Source: Lachnospiraceae bacterium (GTDB lineage Bacteria > Bacillota > Clostridia > Lachnospirales > Lachnospiraceae). Taken from it: DNA of 53,729 nucleotides. The position numbers and the translations under genes are program-made. This document shows, piece by piece, positions 42,759 to 52,172 of this stretch; the stretch's first letter is position 1, and the number at the start of each line of letters is the position of its first letter. The notes beneath the pieces were generated by a model. The model was not told where the DNA came from. It ran no database searches and saw only the letters and a program-made list of their open reading frames with translations. The DNA is taken from positions 1-53,729 of the forward strand of contig JAGAPK010000040.1 of NCBI GenBank assembly GCA_017623295.1, read 5' to 3'.

Positions 42759-43394
42759 ATGTCAGCTAGTAATGCAACAATATATTTAAAAGCAGAGCAG
42801 AATGTGGAACTGCAGTCGGATGATGTGTATTTAAAAGATATTGGAAAAATGACTTGTAGTGATGAAGCAATATTAGCCAAAGTGAAAACAATAAAACTAC
42901 ATCGATTTAAAGAAGGAGAATCCAAGCGACAAGTCATCAGCGTTTTAAAAATAATCGAGGAAATTGAAAAGCTATACCCCAATGTAACAGTTGAGAATCT
43001 TGGGGAAAGTGATGTTTTAATAGAAAGAATTAATGTAAACCGGCATAAAGGACCTATACAATTTGCCAAAATTGTTTTTGTTTCCGCAATTAGTTTCTTT
43101 GGAACTGCGTTTACCATTATGGCTTTTCATAATGATATAGGTATCAATGGTGTTTTTTCCAGAATCTATGAAATGGTGACCGGACAAGTGGCTGATGGAT
43201 ATAGCATTTTGGAATTCTCATATTCCATTGGACTTGCAGCGGGAATTATTATTTTCTTTAATCACATCGGAGGCAGGCGAATTACCAAAGATCCGACACC
43301 GATAGAAGTAGAAATGCGTGTTTATGAAAGGGATGTAAACAAAGCTTTGATTGAAACAGCGGATAGAGAGGGGAAAACAATTGATGTTCAGTAA
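42759..43394 (+). CDS. spoVAA: Stage V sporulation protein AA
   Basis: 211 aa. N-terminal soluble domain with the SpoVAA pattern (IYLKAEQNVELQSDDVYLKDIGKMTCSDEAILAKVKTIKL, VISVLKIIEEIEKLYPNVTVENLGESDVLIE) and two C-terminal membrane helices (~108-125 and ~147-168). SpoVA proteins form the forespore inner-membrane channel for dipicolinic acid. The forespore-type promoter upstream agrees. The SD is weak. Followed by spoVAB with an 11-nt overlap. Confidence 0.9.
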   Translation: MSASNATIYLKAEQNVELQSDDVYLKDIGKMTCSDEAILAKVKTIKLHRFKEGESKRQVISVLKIIEEIEKLYPNVTVENLGESDVLIERINVNRHKGPIQFAKIVFVSAISFFGTAFTIMAFHNDIGINGVFSRIYEMVTGQVADGYSILEFSYSIGLAAGIIIFFNHIGGRRITKDPTPIEVEMRVYERDVNKALIETADREGKTIDVQ

Positions 43395-43881
43395 ATGGAT
43401 TTTTCTGGCCGTTTTAGGGATAAGCTCTGGTTTGGTAGTTTCAGGTGGTGTATTCACAGTATTACTTGCTGTAGGGTTGATTCCTCGTTTTGCCGGGAAA
43501 ATGCATATTGCAAGACATGTATTCGTATTAGAAGAAATGGTGGTGTTTGGAACTCTTGTAGGTAATTTCTTAAGCGTATTTAGTGATTATGGGCGCTTAG
43601 GTGAGTGGATACTTAGCAGACAGCTATTTGGTCAAGGAACTACGAATGGAATCTGGCATTTTATTAGTACAATACTCTTGATTCTTTTTGGATTTTTTTC
43701 GGGAATTTTTGTTGGATGTCTGGCACTTGCCATTGCGGAAATGTTAGATACGATTCCTATTTTTTCCAGAAGAGTTGGATTCAGGCATGGACTTGGAATT
43801 TCTATTCTGGCGGTGGCGATTGGCAAGGTATTAGGCAGTTTGATTTATTTTACACAGGAATTTTTCCTGTATAGTGGTTAG
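43384..43881 (+). CDS. spoVAB: Stage V sporulation protein AB
   Basis: 165 aa, four to five membrane helices; conserved pieces ISSGLVVSGGVFTVLLAVGLIPRFAGKM, EEMVVFGTLVGN and GCLALAIAEMLDTIPIFSRR are typical of SpoVAB. ATG 43384 (after AGAGGGG) overlaps the spoVAA stop; a longer frame from 43351 lies inside spoVAA and is not favoured. Works with SpoVAA and SpoVAC in dipicolinate movement. Confidence 0.92.
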   Translation: MFSKWIFLAVLGISSGLVVSGGVFTVLLAVGLIPRFAGKMHIARHVFVLEEMVVFGTLVGNFLSVFSDYGRLGEWILSRQLFGQGTTNGIWHFISTILLILFGFFSGIFVGCLALAIAEMLDTIPIFSRRVGFRHGLGISILAVAIGKVLGSLIYFTQEFFLYSG

Positions 43882-43916
43882 AAATGTGCAAAATGAAAGG
43901 AAGGATCGAGAAAACT

Positions 43917-44423
43917 ATGGAGCAGAATCAGAAAATGACAGAGAAAGAAAAACAGCAGCAGGCAGCAAAAGAAGCGGAAAATGAGCAGTATCAGGAACGC
44001 GTAAAACAAGTAACTCCGACACATAATCTCTGGATTCAGATGGCAAAAGCATTTGTTACCGGTGGCATCATCTGCTGTATCGGACAGGCAATTTTAAATT
44101 ATGCGACCAACAGTATGGGACTTGATAAAGAAACAGCGGCTTCATGGTGTTCTATGCTGCTAGTGCTTCTTAGTGTGTTGCTGACCGGATTCAATATTTA
44201 TCCCAAAATCGTAGAGTGGGGCGGGGCCGGAGCCCTTGTACCGATTACCGGGTTCGCCAATTCGGTAGCAGCACCGGCAATTGAGTATAAGAAGGAAGGT
44301 CAGGTTTATGGCATCGGCTGCAAGATTTTCACGATAGCTGGTCCGGTTATTTTATATGGTATTTTCACGAGCTGGGTGTTAGGGCTTGTGTATTGGATAG
44401 GGAAATGTATGGGAGTGGTGTAA
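43917..44423 (+). CDS. spoVAC: Stage V sporulation protein AC
   Basis: About 168 aa; hydrophilic N-terminus (~30 residues), then the SpoVAC membrane core: NLWIQMAKAFVTGGIICCIGQAILNY, LLSVLLTGFNIYPKIVEWGGAGALVPITGFANSVAAPAIEYKKEGQVYGIGCKIFTIAGPVILYG. SpoVAC acts as a mechanosensitive channel for dipicolinate. In-frame ATGs at 43884 and 43893 are alternatives. A terminator overlaps the gene end, so spoVAD and spoVAE, which usually follow, are not in this operon. Confidence 0.93.
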   Translation: MEQNQKMTEKEKQQQAAKEAENEQYQERVKQVTPTHNLWIQMAKAFVTGGIICCIGQAILNYATNSMGLDKETAASWCSMLLVLLSVLLTGFNIYPKIVEWGGAGALVPITGFANSVAAPAIEYKKEGQVYGIGCKIFTIAGPVILYGIFTSWVLGLVYWIGKCMGVV

Positions 44424-44437: not shown

Positions 44438-44585
44438 GATTTATTTTATGAAAGTTATTGTTGCATATAATCAGAATAGGTAATACAATATGCGAAGAAT
44501 TTGGAAAAAATGAGTATGAAAGCTATCTTCTTATTGATTTATTATATTTGATAAGGTTCAGATGTTTCCGATAGAGGTTAAAATT

Positions 44586-45113
44586 ATGAAAGTAAACGAC
44601 AAAGAATTTGAAATTATAAAATTATTGGGAAAAGGGAAAGGTGGTTATTCTTATCTGGCTTTCGATGGACAGAAGCAGTATGTGCTGAAACAAATTCATC
44701 ATGAACCATGCGATTATTATCAGTTTGGAAATAAGATTGAGGCAGAGATGAATGATTACCAAAAGTTAAAAAATATTGGAATACGGATTCCTGAAATGCT
44801 GGATGTAGACGTTACCAATGAACGTATCTTAAAAGAATACATAGAAGGTGATACAATCTACGAATTAGTGCTTCAGGACAAAATGAAGCCGGAATATTTA
44901 GAGCAGGTCAAAGGGATGTGTGAACTGCTATATCCGGCAAAAACCAATATCGATTACTTTCCAACGAATTTTATTGTACAGGACGATGAAATGTATTATG
45001 TGGACTATGAGTGCAATGATTACATGGAAGAATGGAATTTCGAAAACTGGGGTATAAAGTATTGGTCTAAGACAAAAGAATTTATGGAATATGTGGAAAA
45101 ACATAGAAAATAA
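44586..45113 (+). CDS. Small protein-kinase-like fold protein
   Basis: 175 aa from ATG 44586 (AGAGG 8 nt upstream; ATG 44562 lacks a site). Kinase-like motifs: glycine-rich loop LLGKGKGGYSYLAF, lysine K35 in YVLKQI, catalytic-loop-like NIDYFPTNFIV (D123, N127) and a DFG-like VDYE (D140). It is much shorter than Hanks-type kinases, with a reduced C-lobe similar to Bud32/RIO or aminoglycoside phosphotransferase-like families. Could phosphorylate a protein or small molecule. The target is unknown; neighbours give no hint. Confidence 0.65.
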   Translation: MKVNDKEFEIIKLLGKGKGGYSYLAFDGQKQYVLKQIHHEPCDYYQFGNKIEAEMNDYQKLKNIGIRIPEMLDVDVTNERILKEYIEGDTIYELVLQDKMKPEYLEQVKGMCELLYPAKTNIDYFPTNFIVQDDEMYYVDYECNDYMEEWNFENWGIKYWSKTKEFMEYVEKHRK

Positions 45114-46938: not shown

Positions 46939-47176
46939 TTGCTACCCCCTCCTTTGTTTATAAAATTTTTATATTTTCAGTCCGACCGTTATTATGGACT
47001 TATGTACAAGAAATGTCAAGAAGGTTTTTTGAATTTACCCTTTTTTAGCAGTATCTTTGCAGAAATTAAGCGATTTTAGTACATTTTTAACACATGATAT
47101 TGAGGAGGGAAAAGGTGTACATATTTCTGTTTGTTTGGTAAAATAGAGAAGAAATTTGCAAGGAGGTTGGTCGGAA

Positions 47177-47878
47177 ATGAAATGGAACATAGAGCATAGT
47201 AAATATAAAACTTGTTTTATGCCGTTAGTAGGAATGGCAATCGGATTTTTGATGTATCTGTTTAGCATGTTCTGTCAGCGGTTTGGATTCGGACAACCCT
47301 GTTTTGCTCTTCTGGGAGCAGTTCTGCCGGTGCTTTTATCAGGAGGCATACCGCTTGCCGGATTTATGAAAACGGCAGATGCGCTTAGTACTCCAAAGGT
47401 TAAAGAGAAAAGACTGGAGCAGATGCAGAAAGGCCAGACGGGAGTCTATGGCATGATAGCAATCGCCTGTTATTTTATGCTTTATGCAGGAGGGCTTATT
47501 TTAATATGGAAGGAACGACATTTATTCCTGTTGGGGATGGGATATATTATTTCCAGAATATTAAGCGGAATGGCGGAAGTGTGGTTTCCGTTTGCTGATG
47601 GGGAGAAAGTTTCGTTTGGAAAAGAGGCAAAACAGCACAAGCAAAATCTCAGAGCAATTCTTGTTACGGTTCTGGCACTTTGCTTTGTTCTCTGTATTTT
47701 TATCTCGCCTATTTTAGGTATATTGGAAGCGTTAGCATGTATGTGGGTGTGGACCTACTATTATTATATGTCCAAAAGCAAATTTGGTGGAATTACGAAA
47801 GAAACGACAGGATATTTTCAGTCGCTTTGTGAACTGGCGGTGGTCCTTTTAATAGGAATTATCGGCAGAATTTGGTAA
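47177..47878 (+). CDS. Divergent CobS-like membrane protein with lost aspartates
   Basis: 233 aa, several membrane helices. Matches adenosylcobinamide-GDP ribazoletransferase (CobS) in length and layout: PLVGMAIGFLMYL, the block GGIPLAGFMKTADALSTPKVKEKRLEQMQKGQTGVYGM, and the C-terminal KFGGITKETTGYFQSLCELAVVL. In CobS the central motif reads HLDGLADTADG...KDSRIGAYG. Here two of its three aspartates are A61 and K65, and the second aspartate block is KGQTG. Activity in cobalamin synthesis is therefore doubtful, and no other cob gene is nearby. SD AGGAGG 10 nt before ATG 47177. Confidence 0.7.
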   Translation: MKWNIEHSKYKTCFMPLVGMAIGFLMYLFSMFCQRFGFGQPCFALLGAVLPVLLSGGIPLAGFMKTADALSTPKVKEKRLEQMQKGQTGVYGMIAIACYFMLYAGGLILIWKERHLFLLGMGYIISRILSGMAEVWFPFADGEKVSFGKEAKQHKQNLRAILVTVLALCFVLCIFISPILGILEALACMWVWTYYYYMSKSKFGGITKETTGYFQSLCELAVVLLIGIIGRIW

Positions 47879-47909: not shown

Positions 47910-50627
47910 ATGGATAGAAAAAAATTAGTGCTTGGCATTCTGGCGCATGTGGATGCCGGAAAAACTACATTAGCAGAGAGTATGTTGTATTTAAGCGGAA
48001 GTATCCGTAAAGCGGGAAGAGTAGATCATGGGGATGCTTTCCTGGATACCGACAGCCAGGAGAGAGAACGAGGGATTACGATTTTCTCAAAACAAGCGGA
48101 GTTTTCGTGGGAAGAGATGGATGTCACTTTGCTTGATACACCGGGGCATGTGGATTTTGGTGCAGAGATGGAGCGTACTTTGCAGGTGCTTGATTATGCA
48201 ATTCTGGTAATCAGCGGTGCTGATGGAGTTCAGGGGCATGTGATGACATTGTGGAAGCTTTTGAATCGTTATCAGATACCGGTTTTCCTGTTTGTGAATA
48301 AAATGGACCAGCCGGGAACGGATAAGGAGCGTTTGTTGCAGGAATTGCAAGAGCGCCTAAGCGGACAATGTATCGACTTTTCCAAAGAACAGGATGAGAG
48401 TTTTGCAGAAAATGTTGCGGTTTGTGACGAGAAGTTATTAGAGAAATATTTGGAAAATGGCAGCATTGGGACAGAAGAAATTGCAGAGCTTGTAGCACAG
48501 CGAAAGGTTTTTCCTTGCTTTTTTGGCTCTGCACTAAAAATTGAGGGTGTAGAGGAACTGTTATCCGGTGTGTGCAGATATAGTCTGGCAAGACGATATC
48601 CGGATGCTTTTGCTGCCAGAGTTTTTAAAATCGCAAGAGATGCACAGGGAGATCGTCTGACTTATTTGAAAATAACAGGTGGCAGTCTGAAGGTAAAACA
48701 GATTCTGACGAAAGAAGCAGAAGCCGGTAAGGAAGGCTGGGAAGAAAAAGTTGACCAGATACGTGTGTATTCTGGTACAAAATATGAAGCCATTCAGGAA
48801 GCAGCAGCTGGAGTAGTCTGTGCAGTAACAGGACTTAGTAAGACCTATTCCGGTGAAGGACTTGGAGCAGAAGAAGAAAATGAAGCACCGTTACTTGCTC
48901 CGGTTATGACTTATCGGATTTTGTTGCCGGAAGAATGTGACTTGCATGTGATGTACAAAAAGTTATGTCAACTAGAGGAAGAAGAACCGCAGTTGCATAT
49001 TGTATGGAAAGAACAGCTTGGAGAAATTCATGCACAGCTTATGGGGGAAGTGCAGATAGAAATTTTGAAAAAGCTGATTGAGGAGCGTTTCGGTGTTTCG
49101 GTAGAGTTTGATGAGGGCAGTATCGTATATAGGGAGACCATAAGGACCGCAGTGGAAGGTGTCGGACATTTCGAGCCGCTTCGCCACTATGCGGAAGTAC
49201 ATTTGCTTTTAGAACCGGGTGAGCCGGGAAGCGGTCTTGTATTTGGGGCTGACTGTAGCGAAGATGTGTTAGATAAAAACTGGCAGCGATTGATTCTGAC
49301 CCATCTGGAAGAAAAAGAACACATCGGTGTGCTGACAGGTTCACCAATTACGGATATGAAGATTGCGTTAGTTGCTGGCAGGGCGCATCTGAAGCATACA
49401 GAAGGCGGTGACTTCAGACAGGCAACTTATCGTGCGGTAAGACAGGGGCTTTCTAAGGCAGAAAGTATCTTGTTAGAGCCTGTTTATGAATTCCGGTTGG
49501 AACTTCCGTCATCTATGATTGGGCGTGCTATGTCAGATATACAGGCAATGCACGGAAGTTTTGAACCGCCGGTAATAGAAGGCGAAATGTCAATATTGAC
49601 GGGAACAGCACCGGTTGCAACGATGCAAGGGTATCAGAAAGAATTGATTGCGTATTCCGGGGGCTGCGGCAGGATGTTTTGTAGTCTGAAAGGATATGAG
49701 CCTTGTCATAATACGGAAGAAGTCATAGACAAGATTGGCTATGATGCAGAGCGTGATTTGGATAATCCGGCATCCTCTGTTTTCTGTGCACATGGAGCCG
49801 GTTTTGTAGTGAACTGGTATGACGTAGAGAACTATATGCATGTGGAAAGTCCTCTGCAAAAGCATTTTGCTGATGATGGGGCAAATGAATGGCGTGTGCA
49901 GGGAATCGAAAGAAGTCAGCAAAATACAGAGAAACTTCGGAATGCAGGAAAGTCGGGCAGGCAGGAAGATAAAGAACTGGAAGAAATTTTCAAGCGCACT
50001 TATGGAACGGTGGAACGCGTAAAGCCAGGATATCAGAAGACGATTCGTGCCAAACAGAATGAGTATATTTCATCCGGAAAAGCCAAGCCGTTGACGGAGG
50101 ATCAGAAAAAAGAATATTTATTAGTAGACGGCTATAATATTATTTTTGCATGGGAAGAGTTAAAAGAACTTGCAAAAGTAAATCTGGACAGCGCCAGAGG
50201 AAAGCTAATGGATATTTTGAGCAATTATCAGGGATATCGGAAAATGACGTTGATACTTGTTTTTGATGCCTATAAAGTAAAAGGTAATCCGGGAAGTGTT
50301 TCTATGTATCATAATATCCATGTGGTATATACCAAAGAGGCAGAAACAGCAGACCAGTATATCGAAAAAGTAACTCACGAAATTGGCAGAAAGTATCGTG
50401 TTACGGTAGCAACTTCCGATGGACTGGAACAGCTTATTATTATGGGTCAGGGCGCAGCAAGAATTTCTGCCAGAGAATTAAAAGAAGAAATTATGTCAAC
50501 CAATCAGGAGATGCGAGAAGTTTTTCTGGAAAAACCGGTGCAGGGAAAGCAATATCTTTTTGATGAGCTTTCGGATGAACTGGCAGAACATATGGAAGAA
50601 GTACGATTAGGAAAAAAGGAGTTTTGA
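47910..50627 (+). CDS. TetM/EF-G-like GTPase fused to Rae1/YacP NYN ribonuclease domain
   Basis: 905 aa. Residues 1-~640 are a ribosomal-protection/EF-G-type translational GTPase: G1 AHVDAGKT (12-19), G2 RGITI (54-58), G3 DTPGH (76-80), G4 NKMD (130-133), G5 GSAL (206-209), then EF-G domains II-V as in TetM. A charged linker (~640-735) leads to a full YacP/Rae1-type NYN domain (~736-895): LLVDGYNIIFAW (D740), FDAYKVKG, KEAETADQYIEK (D815), ATSDGLEQ (D837), GQGAARISAREL, with all acidic catalytic positions kept. Free-standing Rae1 cleaves mRNA in the ribosomal A site, where TetM also binds; the fusion suggests GTPase-directed A-site mRNA cleavage or rescue. The relQ gene follows 6 nt later. 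Tetracycline resistance should not be assumed. Confidence 0.88.
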   Translation: MDRKKLVLGILAHVDAGKTTLAESMLYLSGSIRKAGRVDHGDAFLDTDSQERERGITIFSKQAEFSWEEMDVTLLDTPGHVDFGAEMERTLQVLDYAILVISGADGVQGHVMTLWKLLNRYQIPVFLFVNKMDQPGTDKERLLQELQERLSGQCIDFSKEQDESFAENVAVCDEKLLEKYLENGSIGTEEIAELVAQRKVFPCFFGSALKIEGVEELLSGVCRYSLARRYPDAFAARVFKIARDAQGDRLTYLKITGGSLKVKQILTKEAEAGKEGWEEKVDQIRVYSGTKYEAIQEAAAGVVCAVTGLSKTYSGEGLGAEEENEAPLLAPVMTYRILLPEECDLHVMYKKLCQLEEEEPQLHIVWKEQLGEIHAQLMGEVQIEILKKLIEERFGVSVEFDEGSIVYRETIRTAVEGVGHFEPLRHYAEVHLLLEPGEPGSGLVFGADCSEDVLDKNWQRLILTHLEEKEHIGVLTGSPITDMKIALVAGRAHLKHTEGGDFRQATYRAVRQGLSKAESILLEPVYEFRLELPSSMIGRAMSDIQAMHGSFEPPVIEGEMSILTGTAPVATMQGYQKELIAYSGGCGRMFCSLKGYEPCHNTEEVIDKIGYDAERDLDNPASSVFCAHGAGFVVNWYDVENYMHVESPLQKHFADDGANEWRVQGIERSQQNTEKLRNAGKSGRQEDKELEEIFKRTYGTVERVKPGYQKTIRAKQNEYISSGKAKPLTEDQKKEYLLVDGYNIIFAWEELKELAKVNLDSARGKLMDILSNYQGYRKMTLILVFDAYKVKGNPGSVSMYHNIHVVYTKEAETADQYIEKVTHEIGRKYRVTVATSDGLEQLIIMGQGAARISARELKEEIMSTNQEMREVFLEKPVQGKQYLFDELSDELAEHMEEVRLGKKEF

Positions 50628-50633
50628 TAGTAA

Positions 50634-51401
50634 ATGGATAATAGTAATATTTTGGAACAGTTACAGGCAAAAATTATGAGAGAGAGTATTTTATCAGATG
50701 GCTTTCTTGATTTTCTGCAGGAAAATAAATTGCCTGTGGATACGCTTATGGCTTATTACCGCTGCGCTATTATGGAAATTGAAACAAAATTTAAGGTGCT
50801 TAACGAGCAGTTTTCCCTGCGATATGACCGTAATCCAATCGAGAGTATTAAAACACGTATTAAATCGATGGAAAGTATCATGAAGAAAATGCGGAATAAA
50901 AATCTGCCGATTACATTAAGTTCGATTGAAGAATATATAAGAGATGTGGCAGGTGTCCGGGTAGTATGTTCTTTTCTGGATGATATTTATATGCTGGCAG
51001 ATTGTTTGTTGCAGCAGGATGATATTACATTAATTGAGAAAAAAGATTATATTCAGAATCCAAAAGAAAGCGGTTATCGAAGTCTGCATCTGATTATCGA
51101 AGTTCCGATTTTCTTGCAGGATGAAAAAAAGAATATGAAGGTAGAAGTACAGCTTCGTACGATAGCAATGGATTTCTGGGCAAGTCTGGAACACAAGCTG
51201 CGTTACAAGAAAAACATTCCGGATGAAGAAGCGGAACAGTTAGCAAAAGAACTGGTGGAATGTGCACGGACAAGTGCTGCATTGGATAGCCGCATGCAGG
51301 ACATCAAAAATCGCATTGCAACGGAGGAAGAGAAGCATAGCAATGAAGAACCGAAGACGATAGGGGATATTATTTTGCGAAATGGACTGTTCAATTTCTA
51401 G
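50634..51401 (+). CDS. relQ: Small alarmone synthetase (RelQ/SasB-like GTP pyrophosphokinase)
   Basis: 255 aa, RelA/SpoT synthetase domain only: RYDRNPIESIKTRIKSMESIMKKM, IRDVAGVRVVCSFLDDIYMLADCLL, NPKESGYRSLHLIIEVP and VEVQLRTIAMDFWASLEHKLRYKK. No hydrolase domain and no TGS/ACT. Makes (p)ppGpp from ATP and GDP/GTP; RelQ-type enzymes are tetrameric and allosterically controlled by pppGpp and RNA. The C-terminal ~40 residues are an acidic helix. Almost certainly co-transcribed with the TetM-Rae1 fusion, whose end contains its ribosome site (AAAAGGAG). Confidence 0.94.
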   Translation: MDNSNILEQLQAKIMRESILSDGFLDFLQENKLPVDTLMAYYRCAIMEIETKFKVLNEQFSLRYDRNPIESIKTRIKSMESIMKKMRNKNLPITLSSIEEYIRDVAGVRVVCSFLDDIYMLADCLLQQDDITLIEKKDYIQNPKESGYRSLHLIIEVPIFLQDEKKNMKVEVQLRTIAMDFWASLEHKLRYKKNIPDEEAEQLAKELVECARTSAALDSRMQDIKNRIATEEEKHSNEEPKTIGDIILRNGLFNF

Positions 51402-51536
51402 AATTTCCAGAAGATGAAAATGATACACTTTTATTTCGTCATGTGTTAAGATAAAGACTGGACGTTATGTATATAAAATATAACATAAAGATCAGATATG
51501 AATAAAACAGTAAAAATGAAACAGGAACAGGTGCAG

Positions 51537-52172
51537 ATGGAGAATATCAAAGAACCATATAAAATCATAGAGCGGGGTGGTATGGGAGAAATCGAAGAGA
51601 AGAAATCCCGTTTTATTGCAAATGTGGCACCGGTTCAGAATGAGGAAGAGGCACTTGCATTCATTGAAGCAATGAAGAAGAAATATTGGGATGCAAGGCA
51701 TAATTGTCATGCCTATGTTCTTGGAGAAAAAGCGCAACTGGTAAGGTTTTCAGATGATGGAGAACCCTCCGGTACAGCGGGAAAACCGATTCTGGAAGTG
51801 TTGCTTGGTCTGGAAGTAAGAAATGTTGTTGTCGTTGTTACCAGATATTTTGGCGGTACTTTGCTTGGTACGGGTGGATTGGTGCGTGCTTATACGCAGG
51901 CGACACAGGCAGGGATGGAAGCATGTAGCATTCGGACTATGCGCTATGGAACACTTTTGCAGATTACAACGGATTACAATGGAATCGGTAAGATACAGTA
52001 TTTGTTAGGACAGCGGAAAATTGCGATAGAAGAACCGGAGTACACGGATGTGGTTTCTCTGAAAGTGAAGCTTCCTTTTGAAGAGGAAGAGTCTGTTTTG
52101 AAGGAAATTACAGAAGCAACAGCCGGAAAAGCCCAGATAGAGAAAATCGAAAACCTATATTATATGGAATGA
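51537..52172 (+). CDS. IMPACT/YigZ family protein
   Basis: About 212 aa. N-terminal UPF0029/IMPACT domain with EIEEKKSRFIANVAPVQNEEEALAFIEAMKKKYWDARHNCHAYVLG, FSDDGEPSGTAGKPILEVL and VVVVTRYFGGTLLGTGGLVRAYTQAT, then a ferredoxin-like C-terminal domain (DUF1949). ATG 51537 (AGGAACAGG upstream) fits the usual family length; ATG 51498 would add 13 residues. The eukaryotic relatives (IMPACT/YIH1) regulate the stress kinase GCN2; bacterial YigZ function is poorly known. Sits 135 nt after relQ, so it may share the translation-stress theme. Confidence 0.92.
   Translation: MENIKEPYKIIERGGMGEIEEKKSRFIANVAPVQNEEEALAFIEAMKKKYWDARHNCHAYVLGEKAQLVRFSDDGEPSGTAGKPILEVLLGLEVRNVVVVVTRYFGGTLLGTGGLVRAYTQATQAGMEACSIRTMRYGTLLQITTDYNGIGKIQYLLGQRKIAIEEPEYTDVVSLKVKLPFEEEESVLKEITEATAGKAQIEKIENLYYME

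Follow-up and report, generated by a model that had tools for sequence, protein, structure and literature searches.

We analysed a 53,729-nucleotide (nt) contig of a Lachnospiraceae bacterium (JAGAPK010000040.1; the whole stretch is referred to here as the window) in which a single gene, at 47910-50627 on the forward strand, encodes a translational GTPase of the EF-G/Tet type joined to a nuclease domain of the Rae1/YacP type. Comparison with related genomes suggests that this fusion protein is the resident Rae1 of its lineage, tethered to a translational GTPase of its own, and that it stands where others have a separate Rae1. In the family of the window the fusion looks like the usual form of the Rae1-type nuclease. 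As to its function, we give about even weight to the proposal that the protein is a GTP-controlled Rae1 that would cut A-site mRNA in paused ribosomes.

Rae1 is described as a ribosomal A-site endoribonuclease, and in B. subtilis it is reported to destabilise mRNA in a translation-dependent manner (PMC6613710, PMC10100781). Atkinson 2015 (PMC4342817) states that Tet proteins of ten clostridial species gained a YacP-like NYN RNase domain, and proposes that it cleaves rRNA or provides a novel form of antibiotic resistance. The window gene belongs to this set of proteins, having the same architecture and host group. An earlier interpretation of the window made from its letters alone (the sequence-only reading) had presented the fusion with its neighbours as not described, which does not hold for the fusion itself since it has been in print since 2015.

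Results

The window encodes an intact GTPase-nuclease fusion

The gene is a single intact frame of 905 amino acids (aa) with an ATG start, and Pfam finds EF-G domains followed by NYN_YacP within it, as expected from the sequence-only reading of one polypeptide that joins both activities. All of the following parts lie on the forward strand. The G domain (residues 7-223, 47928-48578) matches Pfam GTP_EFTU with 177.8 bits and has intact G1 to G4 motifs, including G1 AHVDAGKTT, the switch I stretch RGIT, G3 DTPGH and G4 NKMD. It is followed by domains 2 and 3 (residues 234-401, 48609-49112; EF-G_D2 at 234-312 and EFG_III at 331-401), by domain IV with its subfamily-specific stretches (residues 404-517, 49119-49460; EFG_IV) and by domain V (residues 521-601, 49470-49712; EFG_C). 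The G motifs together with domains I-V place the protein in the EF-G/EF2 group. Beyond domain V we found a conserved C-terminal extension of 45 residues (602-646, 49713-49847), a linker of 89 residues (647-735, 49848-50114) and the Rae1/YacP NYN nuclease domain (about residues 736-899, 50115-50624).

The NYN_YacP match covers residues 737-899 and scores 182 bits against a Pfam cut-off of 24.6, which makes this a Rae1/YacP domain. D740, D786, D815 and D837 are all present, and the four aspartates are invariant in every NYN domain of the comparison, which covered 46 fused and 44 stand-alone ones. The sequence-only reading had listed D740, D815 and D837 along with the G motifs as kept, and both observations were borne out. 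The domain also matches the solved YacP structures 5mq8 and 5mq9, which we take to be B. subtilis Rae1. Rae1/YacP of B. subtilis has the same NYN_YacP domain and the same invariant aspartates as the stand-alone copies; however it is not joined to another protein (181 residues in the solved YacP chain), whereas in the window it forms the C-terminal domain of a GTPase.

An AlphaFold2 model was built from 33 aligned fused proteins and has a mean predicted local distance difference test score (pLDDT) of 78.1 and a predicted template modelling score (pTM) of 0.55. The extension, most of the GTPase and the nuclease are folded in this model, with block means mostly above 75. The linker is mostly disordered: residues 655-732 have a pLDDT below 50, and a helix is assigned within them at 684-698. 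Linker length among the 33 fused proteins ranges from 66 to 110 residues with a median of 77. A [RK]T[YF]G motif is present in 17 of the 33 aligned linkers, and the window version lies within ELEEIFKRTYG (49959-50003). This ELEEIFxRTYG-like motif, assigned as a short helix, is possibly a binding motif. When the model was compared with solved structures using Foldseek, EF-G led with 21-28% identity.

The fusion seems to replace the stand-alone Rae1

We surveyed a family sample of 200 genomes from 199 genera of the window's family, Lachnospiraceae, all at least 90% complete except for the window's own. NYN_YacP was found in 179 of the 200 genomes, with one match in 175 of these and two in the remaining four (G070, G101, G150 and G185). 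Frames of at least 800 aa, counted from stop to stop, hold 133 of the best 150 NYN_YacP matches; 17 of these 133 rows have stop codons within the matched stretch, which probably fall past the end of the gene. The GTPase was found in 172 of the 200 genomes (E values up to 1e-150), and about 86% of the sampled genera (171 of 199) carry it.

The shorter frames among the best 150 matches number 17, and we inspected 16 of them (all but G121). Ten of these are NYN genes that stand separately; contig ends truncate two more, and the remaining four have GTPase sequence in the frame itself or in the one next to it. A few assemblies (G159, G073, G155, G232 and G012) contain copies that are split, overlapping or partial, and contig edges cut the copies in G118 and G230; none of these was counted with the ten truly separate genes. 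At four loci (L099, L100, L102 and L103) the GTPase and NYN frames are split or overlapping, owing to frameshift errors or to true splits. A sequencing error or a chance or assembly join as the origin of the fusion, a concern already raised in the sequence-only reading, was ruled out since fused frames occur in many genera.

Eight of the ten separate NYN genes directly follow a gene for a SpoU/RlmB-like methylase, and yacO and rae1 are paired likewise in B. subtilis (PMC6613710). We then counted both halves in a phylum sample of 398 genomes, where the GTPase occurs in 28 frames of 857-937 aa and in 7 frames of 651-674 aa. The 28 genomes with long frames were counted as fused; NYN was seen in the same frame for 25 of them, and the other three (G191, G597 and G504) were assigned by frame length together with an NYN match in the genome. 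Each of the 28 fused genomes has exactly one NYN_YacP match, and at least one match is present in 191 of the 370 others. These counts suggest that the fusion has taken the place of the rlmB-linked Rae1 that stands alone in other genomes.

The GTPase and the nuclease occur together in the family

Ten family genomes have their NYN gene apart, and in 8 of them we found an unfused subfamily GTPase elsewhere in the genome. The two exceptions are G045 and G094, the latter having only a 33% identical protein that is probably an ordinary Tet-type protein. At the cut-off used the subfamily GTPase was present in none of the 21 family genomes that lack NYN_YacP; 20 of these were examined, and one (G218) encodes a 32% identical protein that is probably of the Tet type. 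The difference between 8 of 10 and 0 of 21 gives a Fisher p of 5.7e-6, with relatedness not taken into account. By comparing the lists by hand, we found that all 172 GTPase-bearing family genomes also have NYN_YacP.

Outside of the window's family the co-occurrence is weak, as NYN_YacP is present in 4 of the 7 phylum-sample genomes whose GTPase is unfused versus 191 of the 370 genomes without the fused gene. Neobacillus cucumis and Intestinibacter bartlettii have both the unfused GTPase and NYN_YacP, and a Collinsella with an unfused GTPase has a weaker NYN_YacP match of 91 bits in a 232-aa frame. Co-occurrence within the family, replacement of the stand-alone Rae1 and the apparent joint transfer described below provide indirect evidence suggesting that the two halves belong together.

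Both halves appear to have moved together between families

Trees were of a quick type with Shimodaira-Hasegawa-like approximate likelihood ratio test (SH-aLRT) support alone and contain many weak forks. The NYN tree (90 rows) places the fused copies of families f29, f73, f76, f87 and f148 among fused sequences from the window's family. The GTPase tree gathers these five families into one nested group with a support of 99, and this group also holds f2, f33, a Clostridiaceae locus and a member of the window's family (G149). Since the same families are nested in both trees, the halves appear to have moved together, and the simplest reading is that the fused gene was transferred as a unit between clostridial families.

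Unfused copies from two Bifidobacterium genomes and Collinsella (L183, L184 and L185) and from Ligilactobacillus salivarius (L140) form one clade (support 97), whose position among the fused rows depends on a weakly supported fork (80). This suggests transfer plus loss of the nuclease. The fused label changes twice in the GTPase tree and four times in the NYN tree, and two basal rows differ in state, L182 being fused and L128 unfused. One fusion followed by later losses is the simplest, not a proven, reading of these trees.

Both forms were also found on plasmids. A fused copy lies on a 518-kb Monoglobus plasmid record, where it is annotated as 'translation factor GTPase family protein', and the unfused L. 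salivarius copy lies on a 214-kb plasmid with a TetM/TetW/TetO/TetS family annotation. An rpsN (S14) gene (3862-4131 of L140) is located about 2 kb from the GTPase on the latter plasmid.

The GTPase is a subfamily apart from Tet(M), Tet(O) and Tet(W)

The GTPase had been called TetM-like in the sequence-only reading. The best NCBIfam model for the window protein is indeed tet_protect (NF012153), however it scores 416 bits against a cut-off of 775, and the TetM/W/O/S model (NF033148) scores 279.5 bits against a cut-off of 1100. By the NCBIfam cut-offs the window GTPase is a relative of the ribosomal protection proteins and not a member, and the earlier name needs correcting accordingly.

Two stretches of domain IV, GHFEPLRHYAEV and HLKHTEGGDFR, differ from both Tet(M/O/W) and EF-G. 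Among the 67 subfamily rows GH[FY]EP is found in 65 and HTxGGDF in 64; the latter is missing from L125, L168 and L177, two of which also lack the former. At the position of HTxGGDF the window reads HLKHTEGGDF, the stretch in Tet(M), Tet(W) and Tet(O) is YSPVSTPADF and that in the EF-Gs is GSYHDVDSSE; YSPVSTP occurs in none of the 67 subfamily rows. The C-terminal extension, with its CHN..EVI-like and SVFC..G-like motifs, was seen in all 11 relatives aligned, fused as well as unfused, and is absent from the four Tet and three EF-G rows compared.

In the GTPase tree (76 rows) an SH-aLRT support of 100 sets the 67 subfamily rows apart from four Tet and five EF-G rows; one EF-G row (L003_EFG) is long, odd and truncated and was used as an outgroup only. 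We also searched the 398 phylum-sample genomes with a profile of the subfamily (A2). Here 35 genomes score at least 633 bits, with a clear gap to the next group at 520-540 bits; rows of about 690-700 aa, which resemble EF-G, score at most 448 bits. Profile searches scored the best three candidates per genome in the phylum sample and the best six in the family sample. Thus the window GTPase has the EF-G-like fold and all five domains in common with Tet(M), Tet(O) and Tet(W) but differs from them by its domain IV stretches, its extra 45-residue extension and its separate clade; it shares the fold of EF-G but not the domain IV stretches. On these sequence comparisons the GTPase is a subfamily separate from Tet(M/O/W), which is new in this analysis.

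A GTP-controlled Rae1 and its alternatives

By its anatomy the protein looks like a ribosome factor able to cut RNA. We judge a GTP-controlled A-site cut to be the most likely function of the fusion, ahead of drug protection and of two unlinked jobs. The GTP form of the GTPase would enter the factor site of ribosomes with an empty or abnormal A site, and domain IV would probe the decoding site. After GTP hydrolysis domain IV would withdraw and the linker would let the NYN domain take the A site, where it would cut the mRNA codon. The stalled ribosome would then be rescued and the message decayed. The GTPase would in this way supply Rae1 with ribosome targeting and a GTP checkpoint. The sequence-only reading had proposed a similar GTP-driven factor, one that would recognise stalled or drug-blocked ribosomes and cleave their mRNA. 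Known models of EF-G/Tet and of Rae1 would put domain IV and the nuclease in one and the same place, the A site, so a sequential hand-over would be needed, to which the long linker is suited. In a more specific picture, Rae1 of this family would almost always be part of a dedicated translational GTPase and act as a GTP-clocked rescue nuclease: the EF-G-like part would first check the decoding site of a paused ribosome and then pass the A site to the tethered nuclease, which would cut the mRNA. This picture we hold a little short of evenly balanced.

Several observations weigh against this proposal. The genomes of one family are not independent, and seven family genomes have NYN_YacP with no GTPase match at the cut-off (G045, G094, G095, G121, G155, G189 and G230), although at least three of these have broken or partial fused loci. 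NYN_YacP is missing from two Bifidobacterium genomes that have the GTPase, as well as from G548, G593 and G570, which are 3 of the 7 genomes of the phylum sample whose GTPase is unfused; the GTPase can presumably act without the nuclease. Of the 219 phylum-sample genomes with NYN_YacP, 187 lack the GTPase, which argues that Rae1 does not generally need it. Lastly, A849, R851 and R899 are 93-98% conserved in stand-alone Rae1 versus 43%, 46% and 37%, respectively, in the fused domains, with R899 sitting close to the trimmed end of the aligned rows. Their loss may mean changed ribosome contacts or a partly changed function. The same pattern fits, but does not prove, a GTPase that has taken over some of the ribosome contacts.

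It is unlikely, though worth weighing, that the protein is a ribosome protection factor whose GTPase clears tetracycline or some other A-site drug in the manner of Tet(M), the nuclease being an add-on for blocked ribosomes. Such a role is close to the resistance role proposed in Atkinson 2015 (PMC4342817), and it agrees with the best NCBIfam match, a tetracycline ribosomal protection model even if below its cut-off, and with the annotation of the unfused L. salivarius plasmid copy. More plasmid records with this annotation, whether fused or unfused, match an unfused relative. However, the domain IV stretches described above are not those of Tet, the subfamily is a separate clade, and presence in 172 of the 200 family genomes is more like that of a core gene than of a resistance gene. 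Terminator-like elements lie upstream of 13 of the 44 fused loci and of 3 of the 18 unfused ones, as counted with a home-made scan without a shuffled control; this is not regular, and a drug-inducible leader upstream of the fusion was rejected on this ground. We saw no tetracycline resistance record for this subfamily. The tetM gene of B. toyonensis confers tetracycline resistance (PMC5209696), and a quantitative PCR primer for it reads, when translated by eye, VWGLSDIKI. This peptide carries the W of the Tet rows, where the subfamily mostly has G-S/A-P-x-T-D. By these nine residues B. toyonensis tetM looks Tet-type and is probably not a member of the subfamily, and it was set aside as a functional proxy.

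We consider it just as doubtful that the fusion joins two independent jobs, those of an accessory EF-G2-like elongation factor and of an ordinary Rae1, and only co-ordinates their dose. The GTPase was never found without NYN_YacP in the family sample, most of the sampled genera keep the fusion, and the two halves nest the same other families in their trees, all of which speaks for a closer tie. What this alternative does account for are the unfused GTPases in genomes without NYN_YacP, the 187 of 219 phylum-sample genomes that have Rae1 without the GTPase, and the predicted arrangement of two modules on a disordered linker with a pTM of 0.55.

Maturation or removal of rRNA or tRNA by the nuclease, guided by a ribosome-binding GTPase, is improbable. 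An early proposal of this kind for NYN domains was repeated by Atkinson (PMC4342817), and eight of the ten separate NYN genes are beside a gene of the rRNA methylase type; against this, B. subtilis Rae1 is reported to destabilise mRNA in a translation-dependent way (PMC6613710, PMC10100781) and the catalytic residues of the fusion match YacP.

Neighbouring genes are not conserved parts of the system

In the window the fusion is followed after 6 nt by a gene for a RelQ-type (p)ppGpp synthetase (50634-51401, forward strand; RelA_SpoT, 118 bits) and then by a gene for a YigZ/IMPACT family protein (51498-52172, forward strand). The sequence-only reading had reported this gap and both genes correctly, and had joined them with the fusion in a ribosome-stress module linked to (p)ppGpp signalling, calling for a survey of how often the fusion and relQ co-occur. 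We found relQ in none of 40 other fused loci (flanks of up to about 5 kb on each side) and in none of 19 same-genus loci (flanks of up to 1.5 kb, at least four of them cut by contig ends). No neighbour family is present in more than 6 of the 40 other fused loci, and the commonest neighbours resemble, by eye, general transporters and regulators. The RelQ, YigZ, MgtE, CobS-like and CitMHS proteins were also used as tblastn queries against loci L008-L126, and RelQ matched only in the window locus and in L100, there about 0.8 kb from a split copy.

The 31 genomes of the genus contain 63 RelA/SpoT-type matches, and 2 of the 24 inspected adjoin the fusion, one in the window and one in its closest relative (G672). 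The latter keeps the order GTPase-NYN-relQ with proteins that are 88-89% identical; yigZ was not found beside relQ within the flank available there. Because only these 2 of 24 inspected relQ loci adjoin the fusion and the 40 other fused and 19 same-genus loci show none in the flanks covered, the adjacency of relQ is, by this comparison of loci, recent and local. On the same grounds the RelQ and IMPACT genes are neighbours and not conserved parts of the system. A (p)ppGpp-linked stress module of the fusion, RelQ and the IMPACT protein, suggested by the 6-nt gap and the order kept in G672, is therefore very improbable and largely refuted by the survey. The genome of the window (G000) has two further RelA/SpoT-type matches, on contigs C73 and C30.

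A gene for a CobS-like protein (47156-47878, forward strand) ends 31 nt upstream of the fusion and is possibly co-transcribed with it in the window. A CobS-like gene is also directly upstream of the GTPase in a same-genus genome (G012, locus L103), the only locus with a tblastn match to it.

Farther upstream in the window, the genes for SpoVAA, SpoVAB and SpoVAC are consecutive (42759-44423), and the organism is therefore probably a spore former. The gene at 44562-45113 encodes a 183-aa protein without a Pfam match, which has a weak similarity, far below cut-offs, to Bud32-type and defence-type kinases.

Discussion

In the literature searched we found the fusion only in Atkinson 2015, and a mention in the key Rae1 papers is possible. 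The same search found no functional test of a fusion-type translation factor. The description of Rae1 as an A-site nuclease by Leroy in 2017 is reportedly of later date than Atkinson 2015. Whereas Atkinson 2015 filed these proteins under Tet, here the GTPase is set apart from Tet(M/O/W) and the spread of the fusion and its replacement of Rae1 are counted; we also prefer A-site mRNA cleavage as the putative activity over rRNA cleavage or resistance. What our comparisons add are the separate GTPase subfamily, the apparent replacement of Rae1, the co-occurrence in the family and the apparent joint transfer.

If the proposed function is true, we know of no earlier case of a translational GTPase shown to have an mRNA nuclease of its own. 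Unfused relatives can carry a tetracycline resistance protein annotation, and the finding would caution metagenome studies against scoring such genes as antibiotic resistance determinants. It would also offer a clean way to study how Rae1 locates its ribosomes. In related genomes the unfused GTPase would perhaps act with a free Rae1 in trans, and in the fusion itself the sensing of stalls, the cleavage of mRNA and the rescue of ribosomes would be joined in one molecule.

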